Source: Clostridia bacterium (GTDB lineage: Bacteria; Bacillota; Clostridia; Oscillospirales; Acutalibacteraceae). Taken from it: DNA of 64,000 nt. The stretch lies in contig JAGAJB010000013.1 of the NCBI GenBank assembly GCA_017626295.1, positions 1 through 64,000 on the forward strand. The letters are read 5' to 3'. The notes beneath the pieces are model-generated. The model did not search any database and had not been told where the DNA came from. It was given only the letters and a program-made list of their open reading frames with translations. Position numbers and translations under genes: made by a program. Of this stretch, positions 46,244 to 53,924 are shown piece by piece. Each line of letters starts with the position of its first letter. Position 1 is the stretch's first letter.

Positions 46244-47452
46244 ATGAAATATATTGTTGTTTTATACGACGGAATGGCGGACTACCCTGTTCCCGCATTA
46301 GACGGCAAAACGCCAATGGAATTGGCTGAAAAGCCTTTACTTGATAAACTTGCAAGAAACGGCGAAGTTGGTCTTGTAAAAACTGTTGCAGACGGTTTAA
46401 AACCCGGCAGTGACATTGCCAATATGAGCGTTCTCGGTTACAATCCCAAAGAATGTTACACAGGCCGTTCACCCCTTGAGGCAGTAAGTATCGGAGTTAA
46501 TATGCTCGACTCTGACATTATCTTCCGCTGCAACCTTGTTACACTTTCTGACGAAGAAAATTATGAAGATAAAACTATGGTTGATTACAGCGCAGGCGAT
46601 ATTTCCACCGCTGAAGCCGCTGAAATTATTAAGAGTGTGGAAGAGCATTTCGGTAACGATATTTTCGCCTTTTACAGCGGTGTTGCGTACCGTCATTGTC
46701 TTGTGTGGCACAACGGCACACTTGACCTGGGTAAACTTACACCTCCCCACGACATTTCGGGTAAAGTTATAGGGGAACATCTTTCCGACAGCGAAAATGC
46801 AAAAGAACTTATAGGAATGATGAAAAAAAGTTACGATTTTCTTATGGAACACCCTGTTAACAAAAAGAGAATTGCTGAGGGCAAACGCCCCGCTAACTCA
46901 ATCTGGCTTTGGGGCGAAGGCACAAAACCTTCACTCCCCGATTTCAAAGAGAAATACGGTCTTGACGGCTCAATAATCTCTGCGGTTGACCTTCTTAAAG
47001 GTATTGCAAAATGTGCAGGTATGGACGCCCCCGAAGTAGAAGGTGCAACAGGTTACATTGACACAAACTTTGACGGCAAGGCAGAATGTGCAATAAGCGA
47101 ACTCGAAAATAAAGATTTCGTTTACATACATATTGAAGCACCCGACGAATGCGGTCACAGAAATGAGCCCGAAAACAAAGTTAAATCAATTGAACTTATT
47201 GATGAAAAAGTTCTCGGCAAACTTCTTCCCGCTTTGGAAAAATACGAAGATTATAAAATTATGGTACTCCCCGACCACCCCACACCCATTGTTACAATGA
47301 CTCACGCAGGTGACGCAGTACCCTTTATGATTTACCAAAAGTCAAAAGCAACTGACAACGGCATTGAGTCCTTCAACGAGATTACCGCAAAAAATACAGG
47401 TAATTACATTGAAGTAGGTTACACTTTGATGGATAAATTTATAAAGGAATAA
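46244..47452 (+). CDS. apgM: Cofactor-independent phosphoglycerate mutase, archaeal (ApgM) type
   Basis: The 402-residue enzyme interconverts 3- and 2-phosphoglycerate without 2,3-BPG. It belongs to the alkaline-phosphatase superfamily. The N-terminal metal site is YIVVLYDGMADYP, the catalytic serine lies in DIANMSVLGYNP, and the C-terminal metal residues are in HIEAPDECGHR and LPDHPTP. It is shorter than the bacterial GpmI (about 510 residues), which identifies the archaeal-type branch that many Clostridia also carry. ATGAGGT lies upstream of ATG 46244. It is monocistronic with its own promoter and terminator. Confidence 0.9.
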   Translation: MKYIVVLYDGMADYPVPALDGKTPMELAEKPLLDKLARNGEVGLVKTVADGLKPGSDIANMSVLGYNPKECYTGRSPLEAVSIGVNMLDSDIIFRCNLVTLSDEENYEDKTMVDYSAGDISTAEAAEIIKSVEEHFGNDIFAFYSGVAYRHCLVWHNGTLDLGKLTPPHDISGKVIGEHLSDSENAKELIGMMKKSYDFLMEHPVNKKRIAEGKRPANSIWLWGEGTKPSLPDFKEKYGLDGSIISAVDLLKGIAKCAGMDAPEVEGATGYIDTNFDGKAECAISELENKDFVYIHIEAPDECGHRNEPENKVKSIELIDEKVLGKLLPALEKYEDYKIMVLPDHPTPIVTMTHAGDAVPFMIYQKSKATDNGIESFNEITAKNTGNYIEVGYTLMDKFIKE

Positions 47453-47459
47453 AAAACAG

Positions 47460-47494
47460 AAACCAAGAAAGAAACAACTCTTTCTTGGTTTTAT
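47460..47494. terminator. Terminator between apgM and yunB
   Basis: AAACCAAGAAAG pairs with CTTTCTTGGTTT over 12 bp around an eight-base loop. The right arm touches the yunB stop codon, so both convergent genes use it. Confidence 0.85.
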
Positions 47495-48180
47495 TCATTT
47501 CTGACATAATATGAATTCGGCACTTCTCCTACTATAATTGTTTCAACAAGAATTATGGTTTCGTCAACACTTTCATTCAAATGGCAAAGTCCCATATATG
47601 CGTGGGCTGATGCCTGAACGTCAAGGTAAATTGTGTGGCGTGTCTGGTTAATGCCTGCACTTTCAAATTTTGAAACAACGTCCGTAACAGCAAAACCGTA
47701 AATGGTTGCGGTTACGTTTATATTAAACATTTCGCTGTCTAAAAAGGCAAAACCGATTATCGCCCCCAAGGGTATGGGTACTTCTGTTTTATCAAATTTT
47801 GAAAGTCTGTCGGAACATCCGTCGGATAAATCTGCCTTGTAGCCGTTTATGTATGCGCTTTTTAAAGTTATGGCGGCTATTGAGCCGTCGGGATTTTTTT
47901 CGATATTCACCATATCGCTGTACTGTACTCCCAATTCGTCAACAATTTCATTAACGGTGCGGTCAAGTACGTTTGACAATGAGTTTTTCAGTGCATTTCC
48001 GCCCACGGTTTCAATTACTGGTCGCATTTTAATATCACAAATCACGGAACAGATGGAAATCACTAAAAATATTGAAACTATTCTGAATAGAATTATTTGC
48101 CGTTTCTTTTTAAAATAAAACCTTTTAGCCCGTACAGGCGGCGGCCTTTTAAGCCTCGGTTTAAAATAAAATTTCACCAT
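47491..48180 (-). CDS. yunB: Sporulation protein YunB-like
   Basis: The 229-residue protein has a basic N-terminus, one membrane span at about residues 30-52 and a beta-rich outer domain. The C-terminal pattern with the strands FESAGINQTRHTIYLDV and ETIIVGEVPNSYY is the mark of YunB, a membrane protein controlled by sigma-E and needed for efficient sporulation in Bacillus. ATG 48180 is preferred over upstream GTG/TTG codons. It lies alone at the end of the iorB terminator region. It supports spore formation together with sigG and cotJ. Confidence 0.85.
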   Translation of the reverse strand: MVKFYFKPRLKRPPPVRAKRFYFKKKRQIILFRIVSIFLVISICSVICDIKMRPVIETVGGNALKNSLSNVLDRTVNEIVDELGVQYSDMVNIEKNPDGSIAAITLKSAYINGYKADLSDGCSDRLSKFDKTEVPIPLGAIIGFAFLDSEMFNINVTATIYGFAVTDVVSKFESAGINQTRHTIYLDVQASAHAYMGLCHLNESVDETIILVETIIVGEVPNSYYVRNE

Positions 48181-48210
48181 AACTCTCACCAATATATTAT
48201 ATGTAGCAAT

Positions 48211-48251
48211 AAAAAAGATGCACCCTGTTTTTTACAGAGTGCATCTTTTTT
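48211..48251 (-). terminator. Terminator of the T-box/ior operon
   Basis: AAAAAAGATGCAC pairs with GTGCATCTTTTTT over 13 bp, with an inner CTGT/ACAG stem. It directly follows the iorB stop codon. Confidence 0.9.
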
Positions 48252-48820
48252 TATTGATTATAACCCAACTCAAATGCTTTAAGGTTCATTTCAAGGAACT
48301 TTTCGGGGACACAGGCTTTAACCGCGTCAAGCCAGATTTCCTTGTCAATATCGGTATTCTTAGCCATAGCGCCGATAAGAACAACGTTTGTTGCCTTAGG
48401 TGACCCAGCCTCTACTGCAAGGGGAAGTGCATCAAGTTCAACTACCGAAGCCCCTGCTGCCCTAACAGCATCAAGAACACCGTCGGGATATACGCTGTCG
48501 CCGATAACTACTGACATAGGGTCGATTTTCTGAGTATTCACAATAACCTTGCCGTCGGGTTTAAGGCAAGAAAGCCATCTTGCAGCCTCAAGTTGTTCAA
48601 ATGCGAGGATAAGGTCTGCTTCACCCTCACCAACAACAGGTGAATAAACCTTTTCACCGTATTTAACGTATGTAACAACTGAGCCACCGCGCTGACTCAT
48701 ACCGTGAACTTCGGAAACTTTCACGTCGTAACCCTTTGAAAGAAGTGCGCTGCCTAAAATACGGCTTGCAAGAAGTGTACCCTGTCCGCCAACGCCGACA
48801 ATCATAATTGCTTTATTCAT
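48251..48820 (-). CDS. iorB: Indolepyruvate:ferredoxin oxidoreductase, beta subunit
   Basis: The 189-residue protein is the small subunit of the arylpyruvate:ferredoxin oxidoreductase. It has the gamma-type 2-oxoacid oxidoreductase fold with GVGGQGTLLASRILG at the start and SEVHGMSQRGGSVV. Together with IorA it interconverts indole-, phenyl- or 4-hydroxyphenylpyruvate and the aryl-acetyl-CoA. AGGAGAG lies before ATG 48820. It is the last gene of the T-box operon, 18 bases after iorA. Confidence 0.93.
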   Translation of the reverse strand: MNKAIMIVGVGGQGTLLASRILGSALLSKGYDVKVSEVHGMSQRGGSVVTYVKYGEKVYSPVVGEGEADLILAFEQLEAARWLSCLKPDGKVIVNTQKIDPMSVVIGDSVYPDGVLDAVRAAGASVVELDALPLAVEAGSPKATNVVLIGAMAKNTDIDKEIWLDAVKACVPEKFLEMNLKAFELGYNQ

Positions 48821-48838
48821 AATATACGCTCTCCTTTC

Positions 48839-50572
48839 TTATTCAATAGCACCGAATTTGCAAAGTTGTGAACAAACGTTGCAACCGAGGCATTGTGTGA
48901 AATCGATTTCTGCTTTACCGTCTTTCATACTGATAGCGGGGCAACCGATTTTCATACACATTTTACAGGACTTACATTTATCTTTATTTACTTTAAGAGG
49001 CGGATTATGTTTAACCGTCTTGAGAAGTGCGCAAGGTCTTCTTGAAATAACTACCGCAGGAGCGTTAAGTGAAAGTGCCTTGCCAATATTAGTATAGCAG
49101 TCATCAAGGTCATAGGGGTCAACTACAAACACATTGTTTATACCAACCGCTCCACAGAGTTTTTCAAGGCTTACTGCCGCTGCAGGCTCGCCTTTAATAT
49201 TATAACCTGTGGTGGGATTCTGCTGATGGCCTGTCATGCCTGTAATACTGTTATCAAGAATAATTGTAACAGAATTACTGTTGTTGTATGCAATATCAAT
49301 AAGGCCTGTAATACCCGAATGGATAAAGGTTGAGTCACCGATAACCGCAACGCTCTTGTTTGCTTTGTCGGGGTCTGCAAGGTTTCTGCCGTGAAGCCCC
49401 GAAACGCTGCCACCCATACAGAGAACAGTATCAATCATACCGAGGGGTTTAGAAGCACCGAGAGTATAGCAACCAATATCACCGCTAACGGTAACACCGA
49501 GTTTTTTAAGAGAATAGAAAAGACCTCTGTGAGGACAACCTGCGCAAAGAACAGGAGGTCTTTGGGGAATTTCAACGTCTGCTTTAAGCGATTTGCTTTC
49601 TTCACCGAGAATTACTTTTCTGATAAGACCCTGTGAATATTCGCCGAGAAGTGTGAAAGCGGATTTACCGATAACCTCCACACCGATTTTACGGCAATGG
49701 GTTTCAATGTAATCATCAAGTTCTTCAAGAACGTAAACTGTTTCACATTCATTGCAGAAATCTTTAATAAGTTTTTCGGGAAGAGGATAAACACAACCGA
49801 GTTTAAGGTAAGATGCCTTATCGCCCAACGCCTCTTTTGCGTATTCATAGCAAATACCCGAAGTAATAACACCGATTTTCTTATCGTTGTATTCAACTGT
49901 GTTAAGTCCGTTTTCAACGGCTTCAGTTTCGCAGTATTCAACCTGTTTGAGAATACGTTTTTCAACAACTACGTGTTTAACCTTTGCGTTTGCAGGTACC
50001 ATTACGTATTTCTGCGCATTTTTCTCGTAAGTTTTAAGGCCGTTATCAACCCTTTCGCCTACTTCTGCAAGGCTTCTTGAGTGTGAAACGCGGGTTGTAA
50101 GACGAAGAAGAACAGGTGTATCAAAACGCTCTGAAAGTTGGAATGCGAGTTTTGAATATTTAAGGCATTCGTCAGAATCGGAAGGCTCAAGCATCATAAT
50201 CTTTGAAGCCTGTGCATAGTGACGGCTGTCCTGCTCATTCTGTGAAGAGTGCATACCGGGGTCATCTGCAACAACAATAACAAGACCTGCATTAACGCCT
50301 GTATATGAAGATGTGAAAAGCGGGTCTGCCGCTACGTTAAGACCAACGTGTTTCATAGCGCAGAATGAACGCGCACCTGCAACCGCCGCACCGAAAGCGA
50401 CTTCACAAGCCACCTTTTCGTTTGGAGCCCATTCACTTGTAATTTCATCATATTTTGCAATACATTCGGTAACTTCTGTGCTGGGAGTACCGGGGTAACT
50501 TGAAGCAACTCGGCAACCTGCCTCATAAAGACCGCGGGCAACTGCTTCGTTACCTAATAAAAGTTTTTTCAT
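48839..50572 (-). CDS. iorA: Indolepyruvate:ferredoxin oxidoreductase, alpha subunit
   Basis: The 577-residue protein is the catalytic subunit. It has an N-terminal pyrimidine domain (GNEAVARGLYEAGCRVASSY), the TPP-binding domain with GDIGCYTLG and GDSTFIHSGITGL, and a C-terminal ferredoxin domain with cysteine clusters CKSCKMCMKIGCP and CLGCNVCSQLCKFG for two [4Fe-4S] centres. All motifs are intact. The enzyme is oxygen-sensitive and marks an anaerobe. It lies between the acyl-CoA ligase (16 bases) and iorB (18 bases). The reaction is reversible, and the T-box leader points to the reductive, amino-acid-making direction. Confidence 0.95.
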   Translation of the reverse strand: MKKLLLGNEAVARGLYEAGCRVASSYPGTPSTEVTECIAKYDEITSEWAPNEKVACEVAFGAAVAGARSFCAMKHVGLNVAADPLFTSSYTGVNAGLVIVVADDPGMHSSQNEQDSRHYAQASKIMMLEPSDSDECLKYSKLAFQLSERFDTPVLLRLTTRVSHSRSLAEVGERVDNGLKTYEKNAQKYVMVPANAKVKHVVVEKRILKQVEYCETEAVENGLNTVEYNDKKIGVITSGICYEYAKEALGDKASYLKLGCVYPLPEKLIKDFCNECETVYVLEELDDYIETHCRKIGVEVIGKSAFTLLGEYSQGLIRKVILGEESKSLKADVEIPQRPPVLCAGCPHRGLFYSLKKLGVTVSGDIGCYTLGASKPLGMIDTVLCMGGSVSGLHGRNLADPDKANKSVAVIGDSTFIHSGITGLIDIAYNNSNSVTIILDNSITGMTGHQQNPTTGYNIKGEPAAAVSLEKLCGAVGINNVFVVDPYDLDDCYTNIGKALSLNAPAVVISRRPCALLKTVKHNPPLKVNKDKCKSCKMCMKIGCPAISMKDGKAEIDFTQCLGCNVCSQLCKFGAIE

Positions 50573-50588
50573 TATTAAGTACCTCTTT

Positions 50589-52241
50589 TTATTTTTTCTT
50601 TATTTCATTCTGTGAAGCAACAAGGCTTTCACCGCAATAAATTTCACGAAGTTTCGGTTTTTCGATTTTACCTGTGGGGTTTCGGGGAACATCCGCAAAA
50701 ATTATCTTTCTGGGACGTTTGTATCTGGGCATATCGTAACAGAAATCGTTAATATCATCTTCTGTAAGTGTCATACCCTCTTTAACTTCAATAACCGCCG
50801 CCGCAATTTCACCAAGACGCGCGTCGGGTAAACCGATAACCGCAACGTCTTTGATTGCATCGTGCTTGCGTAAGAAGTCCTCAATCTGAACAGGGTAAAG
50901 ATTTTCACCACCGGAAATAATAACGTCTTTTTTACGGTCAACAAGGAATATGAAACCGTCCTCATCCTCCTGAGCCATATCGCCCGTAAAGAGCCAGCCG
51001 TCTGCGAGAACGTCGTTTGTTGCTTTTTCATCTTTGTAATAGCAAAGCATTACACCGGGGCCTTTAACAGCAAGTTCGCCCACTTCACCGCGGGGAACGG
51101 TTGCGCCATGTTCGTCAACAATCTTTACTTCCCAACCGTAGCCTGCTTTACCGATTGCACCCACTTTATGTACGTTTTCAACGCCCAGATGAACACAACC
51201 GGGGCCGATAGATTCGCTGAGACCGTAGTTAGTGTCATACTGATGATGGGGGAAAATATTCAACCATCTTTTAATAAGGCTGGGGGGAACAGGCTGTGCG
51301 CCAATGTGCATAAGGCGCCATTGAGAGAGTTCATATTCACTTAAATCTATTTCTCCGCTGTCAATTGCATCTAAAATATCCTGCGCCCACGGAACAAGAA
51401 GCCACACTATTGTGCAATGCTCTTTGCTGGCGGTATCAATAATCCACTTGGGTTTTGTACCCTTAAGAAGAACTGCCTTACTGCCTGCAACAAGAGAGCC
51501 GAACCAATGCATCTTTGCGCCTGTGTGATAAAGGGGCGGTATGCAAAGGAAAACGTCATCCCTACCCTGTGAATGATGGGCCTGCTCTGTTTTTGCGGCG
51601 TGAACAAGGCTTCTGTGTGCGTGAAGAATCGCTTTCGGGAAACCTGTTGTACCCGACGAGAAGTAAACCGCCGCTTCATCATCGTCACTAAGTGCAACGT
51701 CGGGTGCTTTTGAAGAACAGTACGTAACAAGTCTGTCGTAACTTTCTGCGAACGTGGGGCAATCTTCACCCACGTAGAAAGTATATTTAACATCGGGGAT
51801 TCTGTGGCTAATCTCTTCAACACGGCCTGTAAACTCAGGTCCGAAAACAAGCACGTCACTGTCGGAGAGTTTAAGGCAGTATTTGATTTCATCCGCAGTA
51901 TAACGGTAGTTAAGCGGTACTGCAAGCGCACCCGCTTTAAGTATACCGAAATATATGGGAAGCCATTCAAGACCGTTCATAAGAAGAATAGCAACTCTGT
52001 CACCTTTCTTTATGCCCCTTGAAAGAAGGAGGTTTGCAAAACGATTTGCTTTTTTATCAAAATCGCCCCAGGTAAGTTCTCTTCTGCCTGCATTCAATGT
52101 ATTAGGCTCAACAAGAGAATACTCACGCCAGGTCTGGCGGTTTTTTTCCTGAATATCAGGGTTAATTTCAACAAGGGCTACTTCGTCCTTATAATTCTTT
52201 GCATTATTTACAAGATATTCCGTAATAGGCAAAACTTTCAT
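50589..52241 (-). CDS. AMP-forming acyl-CoA ligase, probably aryl-acetate specific
   Basis: The 550-residue enzyme is a class I adenylate-forming ligase with YFSSGTTGFPKAILHAH (ATP loop), GWLFTGDMAQ and a C-terminal NPTGKIEKPKL lysine. It resembles medium- or long-chain acyl-CoA ligases more than PaaK-type phenylacetate ligases. It is the first gene of the T-box operon with iorA and iorB. Because the enzyme spends ATP to make a CoA thioester, this context suggests activation of 4-hydroxyphenylacetate or a related aryl acid for IorAB. AAAAGGA precedes ATG 52241. A fatty acid substrate cannot be excluded. Confidence 0.8.
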   Translation of the reverse strand: MKVLPITEYLVNNAKNYKDEVALVEINPDIQEKNRQTWREYSLVEPNTLNAGRRELTWGDFDKKANRFANLLLSRGIKKGDRVAILLMNGLEWLPIYFGILKAGALAVPLNYRYTADEIKYCLKLSDSDVLVFGPEFTGRVEEISHRIPDVKYTFYVGEDCPTFAESYDRLVTYCSSKAPDVALSDDDEAAVYFSSGTTGFPKAILHAHRSLVHAAKTEQAHHSQGRDDVFLCIPPLYHTGAKMHWFGSLVAGSKAVLLKGTKPKWIIDTASKEHCTIVWLLVPWAQDILDAIDSGEIDLSEYELSQWRLMHIGAQPVPPSLIKRWLNIFPHHQYDTNYGLSESIGPGCVHLGVENVHKVGAIGKAGYGWEVKIVDEHGATVPRGEVGELAVKGPGVMLCYYKDEKATNDVLADGWLFTGDMAQEDEDGFIFLVDRKKDVIISGGENLYPVQIEDFLRKHDAIKDVAVIGLPDARLGEIAAAVIEVKEGMTLTEDDINDFCYDMPRYKRPRKIIFADVPRNPTGKIEKPKLREIYCGESLVASQNEIKKK

Positions 52242-52249
52242 TCCTTTTC

Positions 52250-52530
52250 AAAAAAATAAACTCACCCTTTGAAAACAAAGGACGAGTTAATACCCGTGTT
52301 ACCACCTTTTTTTACGGATTTCTCACGAAAACCGCCTTACAGAGTAAAAATTACCCTTGCGCTTTAACGGGCGCACCCGCCGCAGCCTACTGTAATTTCG
52401 GTGCGTTGCTCCGGGATGTATTCACACTAACTGCTCACGCGCCTCTCACCAAACGGCAACTCTCTTATTTACGCCTGCTAATGTTACTTGTTCCCTTCGT
52501 TGCATTTGAAGTAAACACTATAAAATTATC
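52250..52530 (-). promoter_or_regulatory. T-box leader with UAC (Tyr) specifier
   Basis: The leader of the ligase/ior operon is a T-box element. Stem I opens with AACGAAGGGAACAAGTA, and its specifier loop carries GAA-UAC-A with UAC at 52420-52418, a tyrosine codon. The T-box sequence AAGGTGGTAACACGGG lies at 52308-52293; its UGGU bulge fits an A discriminator base, as in tRNA-Tyr. The terminator AACTCGTCCTTTG/CAAAGGGTGAGTT plus a U run lies at 52288-52250, and its 5' half can also pair with the T-box. Uncharged tRNA-Tyr should switch transcription on. Confidence 0.88.
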
Positions 52531-52536
52531 CGTTAA

Positions 52537-52565
52537 ATTATATCAAACAAGTCGACAAATGTCAA
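52537..52565 (-). promoter_or_regulatory. Consensus sigma-A promoter of the T-box operon
   Basis: On the minus strand TTGACA (52565-52560) and TATAAT (52542-52537) are both perfect with a 17-base spacer. The -35 overlaps the last codons of the DUF1643 gene. Confidence 0.85.
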
Positions 52566-53185
52566 CACAATGTTTTAAGATACTCCGCTATGTCAAACTC
52601 TTCCGTAGGACTGTTGTTTTTTAGGTAAAGCGGATGGTGGGGGTGACCTTTTACGGAGCGTTTGCCAACGGTAAACCATTTTGCTCCGTATTCATTACCT
52701 ATTTTAACCATTTCCGTAACACAGGGAATAAGATAGGGTCTTTTTTCGATTATAGTACCCCAAGCCGCCCAGACGGCAGGTGTGTTTCCCTCACCGTAGG
52801 ATGAAAGTATATATCGGAAAGCGTTCATATTTTCTCTATGTAAAAGGGAATTAAAACATCCGTCCATATCTTTAGGATTAGTGGCTCTCTGAGCATAGAC
52901 GTTAAACATAATAAAACTGTCATAGCCGTTAAAAAGTGCCGTTCTCTCAACGGATTTCAAAGTATTATCAAGATCATCGGGTTTGGCGGTAGACGGATTT
53001 ATACCGATACAAATAAGGGGATTCTCCCCTCTTGTACCTAAAATATATCGGTACTCAGTATAGGCATTCGGTACGTAGAGCCACTTTTCGCGGTTATACT
53101 CAAAAGAGCCGTCTTTTTCCGTTTCAAGTGCTTCTTGAAATGTCAGTATGTCAATATCTTTTGTTTCACATTGAGGTATGTGCAT
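52562..53185 (-). CDS. DUF1643 family protein
   Basis: The 207-residue protein matches DUF1643. Marks are LICIGINPSTAKPDDLDNTL, FIMFNVYAQRATNP and AVWAAWGTI, with VGKRSVKGHPHHPLYL near the C-terminus. Function is unknown, but the fold is related to uracil-glycosylase-like or nucleotide-binding proteins in some predictions. ATG 53185 with GGGGTGAG upstream is preferred to GTG 53194. Its 3' end contains the -35 box of the T-box operon, so transcription through this gene may feed the T-box operon as well. Confidence 0.8.
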   Translation of the reverse strand: MHIPQCETKDIDILTFQEALETEKDGSFEYNREKWLYVPNAYTEYRYILGTRGENPLICIGINPSTAKPDDLDNTLKSVERTALFNGYDSFIMFNVYAQRATNPKDMDGCFNSLLHRENMNAFRYILSSYGEGNTPAVWAAWGTIIEKRPYLIPCVTEMVKIGNEYGAKWFTVGKRSVKGHPHHPLYLKNNSPTEEFDIAEYLKTLC

Positions 53186-53298
53186 ATATCTCACCCCGGT
53201 AATTTTTTAGTTCGTTTTATTATACTATAATGATAAAGGACTTTTCAATATCATATAATCCTAAATATTTAATATACTGTTAAACCCTGCCGTTTCAC

Positions 53299-53326
53299 TT
53301 GACTTTTTTTGCCAGTATAATATAAT
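53299..53326 (+). promoter_or_regulatory. Promoter of the PRTase-rsmI operon
   Basis: TTGACT at 53299-53304 and TATAAT at 53321-53326 with a 16-base spacer precede the PRTase start by 50 bases. Confidence 0.65.
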
Positions 53327-53375
53327 TAAACTGTGAAATGATGTGCGATTTTATCGCAAAAAGGAGTATGGTTTT

Positions 53376-53924
53376 ATGTATCATTCAATGAAAATTGCAG
53401 GACTTGACAGAAATCTTCCTCTCTGCCCTTTAAACGAAAAATTACAGATAGGTGCTTTCGTTATTTTCGGTGATGCTGAACTTACCGTTGCATGTGCCGA
53501 AGAACTTCTTAAGAAAGCACCCGAATTTGATTACATAATTACTGCTGAAGCCAAAGGTATCCCCCTTGCTCACGAAATGTCACGCCAAAGCGGTAAAAAA
53601 TATTTCGTAGCAAGGAAGAAACCCAAACTTTATATGACAGGTGTTTTCGATGTTGTTGTAAATTCAATAACTACAGAGGGTGAACAGCACCTTTACCTCG
53701 ACACCGCCGAAGCCGATGAAATGAAAGGCAAAAAAGTTATTATCATTGACGACGTTATTTCAACGGGTGAATCACTTAAAGCAGTTCAGAAACTCGTTGC
53801 CGAAGCACAGGCAAACCTTGTGGGTAATATGGCTATACTCGCAGAGGGTGATGCCGCTGACCGTGATGACATTATTTATCTTGAACGCTTACCCTTATTC
53901 GATGCAGAAGGTAATGTGATTTAA
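53376..53924 (+). CDS. Phosphoribosyltransferase (adenine PRTase-like)
   Basis: The 182-residue protein is a type I PRTase. The PRPP loop is VIIIDDVISTGESLKAV near residue 125, and the active-site lid region carries ITAEAKGIPLAHEM, which resembles adenine or xanthine PRTases. RKKPKLYMTGVF contacts the base. It starts at ATG 53376 with AAGGAG upstream and ends one base before rsmI, so they share a transcript. The length is slightly above typical Apt. The base cannot be decided by eye. Confidence 0.8.
   Translation: MYHSMKIAGLDRNLPLCPLNEKLQIGAFVIFGDAELTVACAEELLKKAPEFDYIITAEAKGIPLAHEMSRQSGKKYFVARKKPKLYMTGVFDVVVNSITTEGEQHLYLDTAEADEMKGKKVIIIDDVISTGESLKAVQKLVAEAQANLVGNMAILAEGDAADRDDIIYLERLPLFDAEGNVI

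Follow-up and report, generated by a model that had tools for sequence, protein, structure and literature searches.

A tyrosine T-box in front of an acyl-CoA ligase-iorAB operon: probable salvage of aryl-acetates in a Clostridia bacterium

IorAB is known to handle aryl-acetyl-CoA, and iorAB is usually read as encoding an enzyme of amino acid fermentation. T-boxes switch genes on when their amino acid is scarce, and their usual targets are synthetase, classical biosynthesis and amino acid permease genes. In the window (the whole stretch of 64,000 nucleotides that was analyzed) iorA and iorB follow an acyl-CoA ligase gene behind a tyrosine T-box, which raises the question in which direction these enzymes work and for which product.

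The leader and the operon

The locus comprises, in the direction of transcription:

52537..52565, minus strand, promoter TTGACA-17-TATAAT
52275..52509, minus strand, T-box leader (RF00230), specifier UAC (Tyr), antiterminator bulge UGGU
52259..52288, minus strand, intrinsic terminator with a 13-bp stem, a loop of 4 and a U-rich tail; it and the antiterminator exclude each other
50589..52241, minus strand, AMP-forming class I acyl-CoA ligase
48839..50572, minus strand, iorA, indolepyruvate ferredoxin oxidoreductase alpha subunit
48251..48820, minus strand, iorB, indolepyruvate oxidoreductase beta subunit

The promoter, whose -35 element reaches into the end of the DUF1643 gene upstream, matches the consensus at 12 of 12 positions and has a TG extension before the -10 element. 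A promoter scan ranked it best of 17 promoter-like sites in positions 47000-53500, a number to be compared with 13.1 ± 3.9 such sites of any quality in shuffled sequence. The leader was matched by the covariance model RF00230 over its full length (model positions 1-219) with 117.9 bits (gathering 93, E = 1.9e-25); nothing else in the whole 64 kb scored above gathering with an Rfam model. Its specifier loop reads GUGUGAA-UAC-AUCCCGGAG, with the tyrosine codon UAC after GAA, and the genome encodes a tRNA-Tyr (gta) whose 3′ end ACCA pairs with the UGGU bulge. Six T-boxes of the same genome served as controls in the same alignment; five clearly gave the expected specifier (pheS UUC, thrS ACC, ileS AUC and trpB UGG twice), and in the sixth, alaS, GCU is present at a place that is not unique in the alignment. 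Folding gave -17.3 kcal/mol (z = -2.7) for the 71-nt terminator stretch. The antiterminator alternative, folded alone, reached -8.0 kcal/mol (z = -1.7), and 12 of 200 shuffles did as well. A full-length match, a specifier after GAA, a tRNA-complementary bulge of the UGGN type and a terminator/antiterminator switch thus place the leader, as predicted from its sequence, in the T-box family.

The iorA product scored 713 bits with TIGR03336 (cut-off 650.9), as the sole match in this genome above that cut-off, and the iorB product, which contains PF01558, 281.7 bits with NF005325 (cut-off 230); with a further beta model, TIGR03334, iorB stayed just under the cut-off (199.6 versus 205.8 bits). Equivalog models for both subunits are thus above their curated cut-offs, and the predicted product is IorAB (EC 1.2.7.8). 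The order is ligase, iorA, iorB, with intergenic gaps of 16 and 18 nt. The sequence-only reading of this DNA had claimed a perfect promoter, a T-box with an antiterminator/terminator pair and, behind it, ligase, iorA and iorB as one unit, and had proposed to verify the UAC specifier with a covariance model; the whole arrangement was found on the minus strand and the specifier was confirmed.

T-boxes on related operons

Ligase relatives were collected at 187 loci, some of them duplicated; in one of the searches 80 of 143 places were taken, mostly the best scoring. Ahead of the ligase or of a symporter-ligase operon there were 43 distinct T-boxes, 39 with the specifier UAC (Tyr) and four with UUC (Phe). 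Six of the 43 readings require that one extra base is allowed; 42 were made in one alignment and that of L170 separately, the T-boxes of L106 and L170 lying outside the alignment. A tryptophan specifier was looked for and found in none of the 43. A non-aromatic codon, which had been named beforehand as an observation that would speak against a role in aromatic amino acid synthesis, is likewise absent, all 43 being read as aromatic. Strict specificity for tyrosine did not survive the comparison, since the four Phe T-boxes stand on orthologous operons.

The layouts vary. In L015, L017 and L039 a Tyr T-box is followed by symporter, ligase and iorA, and in L194 ligase and symporter are under a Tyr T-box and iorAB under a Phe T-box. 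A class I/II aminotransferase gene lies 3′ of iorB in L019, adjoins the ligase gene in L032 and L076 and follows an ACT gene in L206.

Among 180 distinct ligase proteins, 42 have a T-box, 115 do not and 23 were not assessable. Absence was judged by a motif search rather than with the covariance model: a locus not otherwise listed counts as lacking a T-box when no copy of the core GGTGGYANCRCG turned up within one mismatch (two for some loci). For the symporter-first operons in L132-L211 the reading extended no more than about 1 kb upstream, and their T-box state was therefore set to unknown. Rows dropped before counting were L106 (upstream region equal to that of L012), L103 (treated as one genome with L013), L117, L118 and L119 (equal to L153, L165 and L177) and L173 (T-box cut at the contig start); the ligase tree excludes L039 (protein identical to that of L135) and proteins under 400 residues. 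In laboratory strains of Ruminococcus albus or R. flavefaciens, which are cultured carriers of this ligase family (L026, L046 and L049), the ligase is preceded by no T-box core within two mismatches.

This distribution bears on the possibility that the T-box is a relic or casual insertion saying nothing about the role of the enzymes. As a relic would lead one to expect, its presence is patchy: the ligase tree shows at least 16 state changes on branches with good support, and in the close relative L013 the upstream gene is the same and the promoter similar, yet there is no T-box core (up to two mismatches). Against it, the specifier is aromatic in every readable case despite the repeated changes and the several operon layouts, and terminator and antiterminator are intact in the window, so that we regard a relic as very improbable. 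Many ligase relatives are not adjacent to ior. Adjacency was counted for 26 of 41 ligases with a T-box and 38 of 112 without, raw numbers behind which phylogenetically independent pairs revealed no association (sign test, median p = 1, range 0.375-1).

The ligase and its acid

The ligase contains PF00501 (256.6 bits) and PF13193 (48 bits) together with the core motifs SSGTTGFPK, YGLSE, TGD, RKKD and GKI, as in class I AMP-forming acyl-CoA ligases. Translation more likely starts at TTG 52232 than at the listed ATG 52241, because the ATG sits immediately after the ribosome-binding site AAAAGGA and because the alignments of most relatives begin at residue 2 to 4. An identity as PaaK was considered and rejected: the domain list holds only PF00501 and PF13193 and not PF14535, the 25 NCBIfam matches listed (of 109) do not include TIGR02155 (PaaK), and blastp against two PaaK-like proteins gave nothing at E = 1e-3. 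The ligase is thus of the generic AMP-forming class, and an arylacetate is its putative substrate.

It might activate another acid, fatty, branched-chain or aryl-propionate, its pairing with IorAB then serving, for example, aryl-propionate scavenging. The nearest NCBIfam models are those of long-chain and fatty acyl ligases, all 25 listed of 109 matches being below cut-off (best NF004837, 413.9 bits, cut-off 476). In addition, several of the ligase operons encode a PaaK-like ligase as well (for example L014 and L060, TIGR02155 529 and 552 bits, below the cut-off of 646.3), and so does the genome itself elsewhere (L242); phenylacetate may therefore already be served. What argues against another acid is that all the operon T-boxes read as aromatic, that aryl-acetyl-CoA is a known compound of IorAB, and that branched-chain acids seem to have T-box ligases of their own in this genome, where one locus has the order Ile T-box, ligase, probable Val T-box (weaker), ligase, VOR, IlvE. 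We hold a different substrate to be rather unlikely.

Direction, precedents and meaning

In an oxidative fermentation of aromatic amino acids IorAB would convert aryl-pyruvates to aryl-acetyl-CoA, from which the ligase would free the acid. Since T-boxes turn genes on under amino acid scarcity, a catabolic operon would be wrongly timed behind one. In PMC13285125, IORs are described as acting on phenyl-, hydroxyphenyl- and indolepyruvate and steps in C. scatologenes as thermodynamically reversible, both of which would suit fermentation; the ligase here, however, is AMP-forming, unlike the ADP-forming ligases or Pta/kinase pairs of that paper. Also against fermentation stand the branched-chain locus, which ends in IlvE, and a second, unlinked Tyr T-box of this genome (UAC, 103.1 bits) ahead of a sodium:solute symporter. 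Of the 18 symporter ORFs of the ligase loci, 12 share 62-68% identity with this symporter and six match it less well; a search for a genus-wide symporter regulon was negative, just two of 22 genomes in the genus encoding the protein at E ≤ 1e-100. Taken together, the Tyr and Phe T-boxes of the operons, that of the symporter and the T-box ligases for branched-chain acids favor acid salvage, and fermentation appears distinctly unlikely.

An explanation of the operon by a lost de novo route was rejected, since the genome encodes both TyrA and chorismate synthase. Of 22 T-box-bearing genomes examined (this one included), 21 have TyrA above cut-off and 21 have chorismate synthase; among the 21 other handles TyrA passed the cut-off in 17. 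Within the genus TyrA was found in 15 of 22 genomes and in five of nine T-box members, where the four members lacking a hit are 76-84% complete. The operon is therefore read as one of salvage, on which tyrosine does not depend. Of the sequence-only reading, in which an ATP-spending ligase and IorAB under a Tyr T-box make tyrosine, the gene set and the UAC switch thus stand, and the operon as the route to tyrosine does not, because the shikimate route is still encoded.

We consider it likely, from the genes and their switch, that the operon is induced by tyrosine starvation and salvages aryl-acetates to tyrosine or phenylalanine. Uncharged tRNA-Tyr would accumulate and stabilize the antiterminator; external 4-hydroxyphenylacetate or phenylacetate would be imported and activated by the ligase to the CoA ester, from which IorAB, using CO2 and reduced ferredoxin, would form the aryl-pyruvate by reductive carboxylation; transamination would then yield tyrosine or phenylalanine, in addition to what the shikimate route supplies.

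In Methanococcus maripaludis, Porat et al. reportedly described how aromatic amino acids are made from aryl acids, a route for which we know of no T-box control, and Allison is said to have found by labelling that rumen bacteria reductively carboxylate phenylacetate and branched-chain acids. The former is alike in that an indolepyruvate oxidoreductase is run from aryl acids towards amino acids, and differs in being archaeal; the latter matches in net chemistry and in type of habitat, and to its labelling physiology genes and T-box control are added here. The M. maripaludis route is cited in PMC4162585, and PMC7356843 covers rumen and gut anaerobes that build amino acids out of aryl-acetates and branched-chain acids. 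For Bacteroides, PMC13285125 (2026) reports arylacetate-CoA ligase activity, by assay, for an AMP-forming ligase next to IOR and already suggests a biosynthetic role for the two; enzyme pair and proposed direction are of the same kind, in another phylum and likened by enzyme kind rather than ligase orthology, and the word T-box is absent from the main text. According to the same paper, the Hpd tyrosine fermentation of C. scatologenes also has a 2-oxoacid:ferredoxin oxidoreductase between hydroxyphenylpyruvate and hydroxyphenylacetyl-CoA, but differs from the operon here in its VOR-type enzyme (HpdDEFG), its phosphotransferase and kinase, its oxidative direction and the induction of hpd during growth on tyrosine.

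Ligase-iorAB and a symporter also differ from the usual targets of RF00230, as given in a 2008 survey (PMC2494555), in whose main text oxidoreductase, phenylacet and acyl-CoA do not occur. A literature search found no link of T-boxes to indolepyruvate, phenylacetate or phenylacetate-CoA ligase, prior mention in T-box surveys being possible.

With somewhat less assurance we favor a general design in gut and rumen bacteria, in which each acid-activating CoA ligase would be under the T-box of the amino acid rebuilt from its acid, tyrosine and phenylalanine with IorAB and isoleucine, valine and leucine with VOR and IlvE, so that starvation would directly trigger a CO2-fixing salvage of aryl and branched-chain acids. 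If so, the codon in the RNA switch would predict the product of each orphan ligase. A product-specific switch on ligase-iorAB and a putative acid importer offers a direct clue to direction and product in the DNA itself, and the old labelling physiology becomes testable gene by gene. In this gut bacterium, enzymes usually credited with the opposite direction probably lead from scavenged aromatic acids to tyrosine, and the annotation of ligase-iorAB clusters in gut Clostridia would shift from phenylacetate producers to consumers.

Promoter, leader and operon of the window

The ligase operon of the window encodes an AMP-forming class I acyl-CoA ligase and the indolepyruvate ferredoxin oxidoreductase IorAB, and is followed on the same strand by a sporulation gene.

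52565 to 48251, minus strand: promoter, T-box leader, ligase, iorA and iorB, in this order
50589..52241, minus strand: ligase gene
48192-47491, minus strand: yunB-like sporulation gene (TIGR02832 just below cut-off, PF09560 above)

The promoter agrees with the sigma-70 consensus at 12/12 positions, has a TG ahead of the −10 and overlaps with its −35 the 3′ end of the DUF1643 gene upstream. The leader, the sole Rfam match above gathering within the window, matches the full T-box model with 117.9 bits and ends in a 13-bp terminator with a U-run; the antiterminator alternative forms once the 3′ half is withheld from folding. Its bulge, UGGU, is complementary to the 3′ end ACCA of the tRNA-Tyr (anticodon gta) of the window's genome. 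The intergenic gaps are 16 nt (ligase/iorA) and 18 nt (iorA/iorB). The true start of the ligase is probably TTG 52232 rather than ATG 52241, because of the ribosome-binding site and of where the proteins of relatives begin. The yunB-like gene starts 58 nt past iorB; the promoter and terminator scan lists no terminator-like site between the two, and transcription from iorB could continue into it.

The specifier loop reads GUGUGAA-UAC-AUCCCGGAG. As a control for misreading, Stem I of this and the other leaders was aligned with that of six T-boxes of the same genome preceding genes that we take, from recognition of their translated starts, to be pheS, thrS, ileS, alaS and trpB (two leaders). Five of the six gave the expected codon (UUC for pheS, ACC for thrS, AUC for ileS and UGG for both trpB leaders); the alaS leader contains GCU, which the alignment does not place uniquely. 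Promoter score, bit score and the controlled reading UAC (Tyr) confirm what the sequence-only reading had seen, a consensus promoter and a tyrosine T-box in front of ligase-iorAB. The two trpB-like genes are separate (contigs C36 and C32), each with its own Trp T-box upstream.

Altogether 11 T-boxes were found in this genome, 6 of them above the Rfam cut-off, and one copy of iorA above cut-off. One of the others, on a different contig, is again a Tyr T-box (specifier UAC; 103.1 bits); it precedes a sodium:solute symporter gene, past which no gene is listed within 1 kb. The symporter is 62-68% identical to 12 of the 18 symporter ORFs of the ligase loci; of the other six, five reach 42-47% identity and the last is a fragmentary ORF. 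Within the genus, a search at E ≤ 1e-100 found the symporter in no more than 2 of 22 genomes, and it is therefore not a fixed partner.

Relatives of the ligase and their T-boxes

Close relatives of the ligase (72-89% identity in the best segment) occur at no fewer than 80 loci of named genomes, by record titles mostly Ruminococcus, Lachnospiraceae and other Clostridia of rumen and gut; four records are of Lentisphaerae type. The family is present in 27 of 40 genomes near that of the window, its own counted. Across the order 142 of the 394 genomes have it, and 80 of the 143 places found there were taken for locus comparison. One genome of the genus (G011, 95% complete) has iorA above cut-off; neither TyrA nor, at the threshold applied, a ligase of the family was found in it.

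Among the 187 loci examined, part of them duplicates, 43 distinct T-boxes precede a ligase or symporter-ligase operon. Their specifiers, 42 aligned and one (L170) read by eye, are UAC in 39 and UUC in four (L121, L157, L178, L195). Six (L064, L141, L204, L166, L090, L178) have one extra base 3′ of GAA and would read AUA, UUA or UUU if it were ignored; the alignment favours an aromatic codon because of the 3′ anchor and because the pheS, thrS and ileS controls have the same extra base. The Rfam score lies above gathering for 39 of the 43 and below for L088 (92.9 bits), L113 (90.4), L090 (67.5) and L170. The weak T-box of L090 precedes a ligase and an ABC_sub_bind-type transporter rather than ior or a symporter. 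L013 and L103 have the upstream gene of the window and a similar promoter with no T-box before the ligase, a natural regulatory comparison.

In a tree of 180 distinct ligases 38 have a Tyr T-box, four a Phe T-box and 115 none, absence meaning that a motif search, not a covariance model, did not find the core motif; 23 were not assessable. Counting well supported branches only, the T-box state changes at least 16 times in this FastTree tree, which does not separate gains from losses, and the 43 T-boxes are therefore not 43 independent cases. Presence of a T-box and adjacency of ior are associated in raw counts, not in phylogenetically independent pairs.

Among the layouts are ligase-iorA-iorB, ligase-iorA-iorB-PaaK-ACT, symporter-ligase-iorA-iorB and ligase-symporter. 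The cluster of L194 has two T-boxes with different specifiers, one for Tyr (−121 from the ligase) in front of ligase-symporter and one for Phe (+3549) in front of iorAB. A class I/II aminotransferase gene lies 3′ of iorB in L019; L032 and L076 have related ones adjoining the ligase, and L206 has one 3′ of the ACT gene. Between them these loci contain the components required to turn an acid into an amino acid; none of the T-box loci examined has all of them at once. On contig C17 of the window's genome (L242, 3093-4842) the gene of a PaaK-like ligase, which shares 77% identity with its L014 counterpart, and an ACT-type gene 3′ of it stand apart from ligase-iorAB, 3′ of which such a pair lies in other genomes; a search of this stretch for the T-box core found none.

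A parallel locus, probably for branched-chain acids

The same genome contains a cluster with T-boxes of the branched-chain amino acid type (L125).

Features of L125 (contig C28, 41000-60000; genes on both strands)
Minus strand: Ile T-box (AUC, 104.2 bits), then XRE-cupin-acyl-CoA ligase
Minus strand: weaker T-box, probably for Val (81.1 bits, under gathering), then second XRE-cupin-acyl-CoA ligase
Minus strand, after the second ligase: small MinD-like ATPase
Minus strand: 2-oxoacid oxidoreductase of three subunits, VOR-type (alpha-type subunit: VorB NF005507, 558 bits, cut-off 399; other two: model matches below cut-off only)
Minus strand, last gene: IlvE (NF009897, 502 bits, cut-off 307)
Divergent: Leu T-box (CUC, 110.3 bits) on LeuA-like gene (every model match below cut-off) and further acyl-CoA ligase fusion

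The specifiers were read via the 3′ anchor of the Stem I alignment, the canonical GAA being present in none; XRE, cupin and MinD are labels that we presume from recognition. Both XRE-cupin ligases of the minus strand score highest with the MbcS model, at values under its cut-off. From its gene content L125 is likely a locus for the salvage of branched-chain acids to branched-chain amino acids. Its logic is similar to that of the window operon; unlike the latter, it ends in an aminotransferase gene.

Direction of flux

Observed are the class of the ligase, a switch responding to amino acid starvation and a symporter with matching specifier; the flux would run from aryl-acetate via aryl-pyruvate to tyrosine or phenylalanine. 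In the opposite direction ligase-iorAB would serve fermentation, and a part of the Bacteroides thetaiotaomicron IOR in the conversion of phenylalanine to phenylacetate has been demonstrated, as described in the main text of PMC13285125. Such a function fits the regulation poorly, starvation control by a T-box being ill suited to a fermentative operon. According to the same text, tyrosine fermentation in Clostridium scatologenes uses a different oxidoreductase and a kinase, and in Bacteroides IOR, which may have a biosynthetic role, adjoins an AMP-forming ligase that was characterised in assays as an arylacetate-CoA ligase; this main text makes no mention of a T-box. An aryl-acid route of M. 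maripaludis is cited in PMC4162585, and phenylacetate can serve as phenylalanine precursor, as stated in PMC7356843. In the open-licence papers searched we found no T-box tied to ligase-iorAB. The parts of the system are already known, and what is new would lie in their combination.

Of the 22 T-box-bearing genomes examined, the window's own counted, 21 have TyrA above cut-off and 21 have chorismate synthase above cut-off; the de novo route is kept. The earlier proposal that the operon makes tyrosine from aryl-acetate has good support in its core and is softened from a route to tyrosine to salvage. In this form the operon would be induced by starvation and salvage tyrosine, and its orthologues phenylalanine too.
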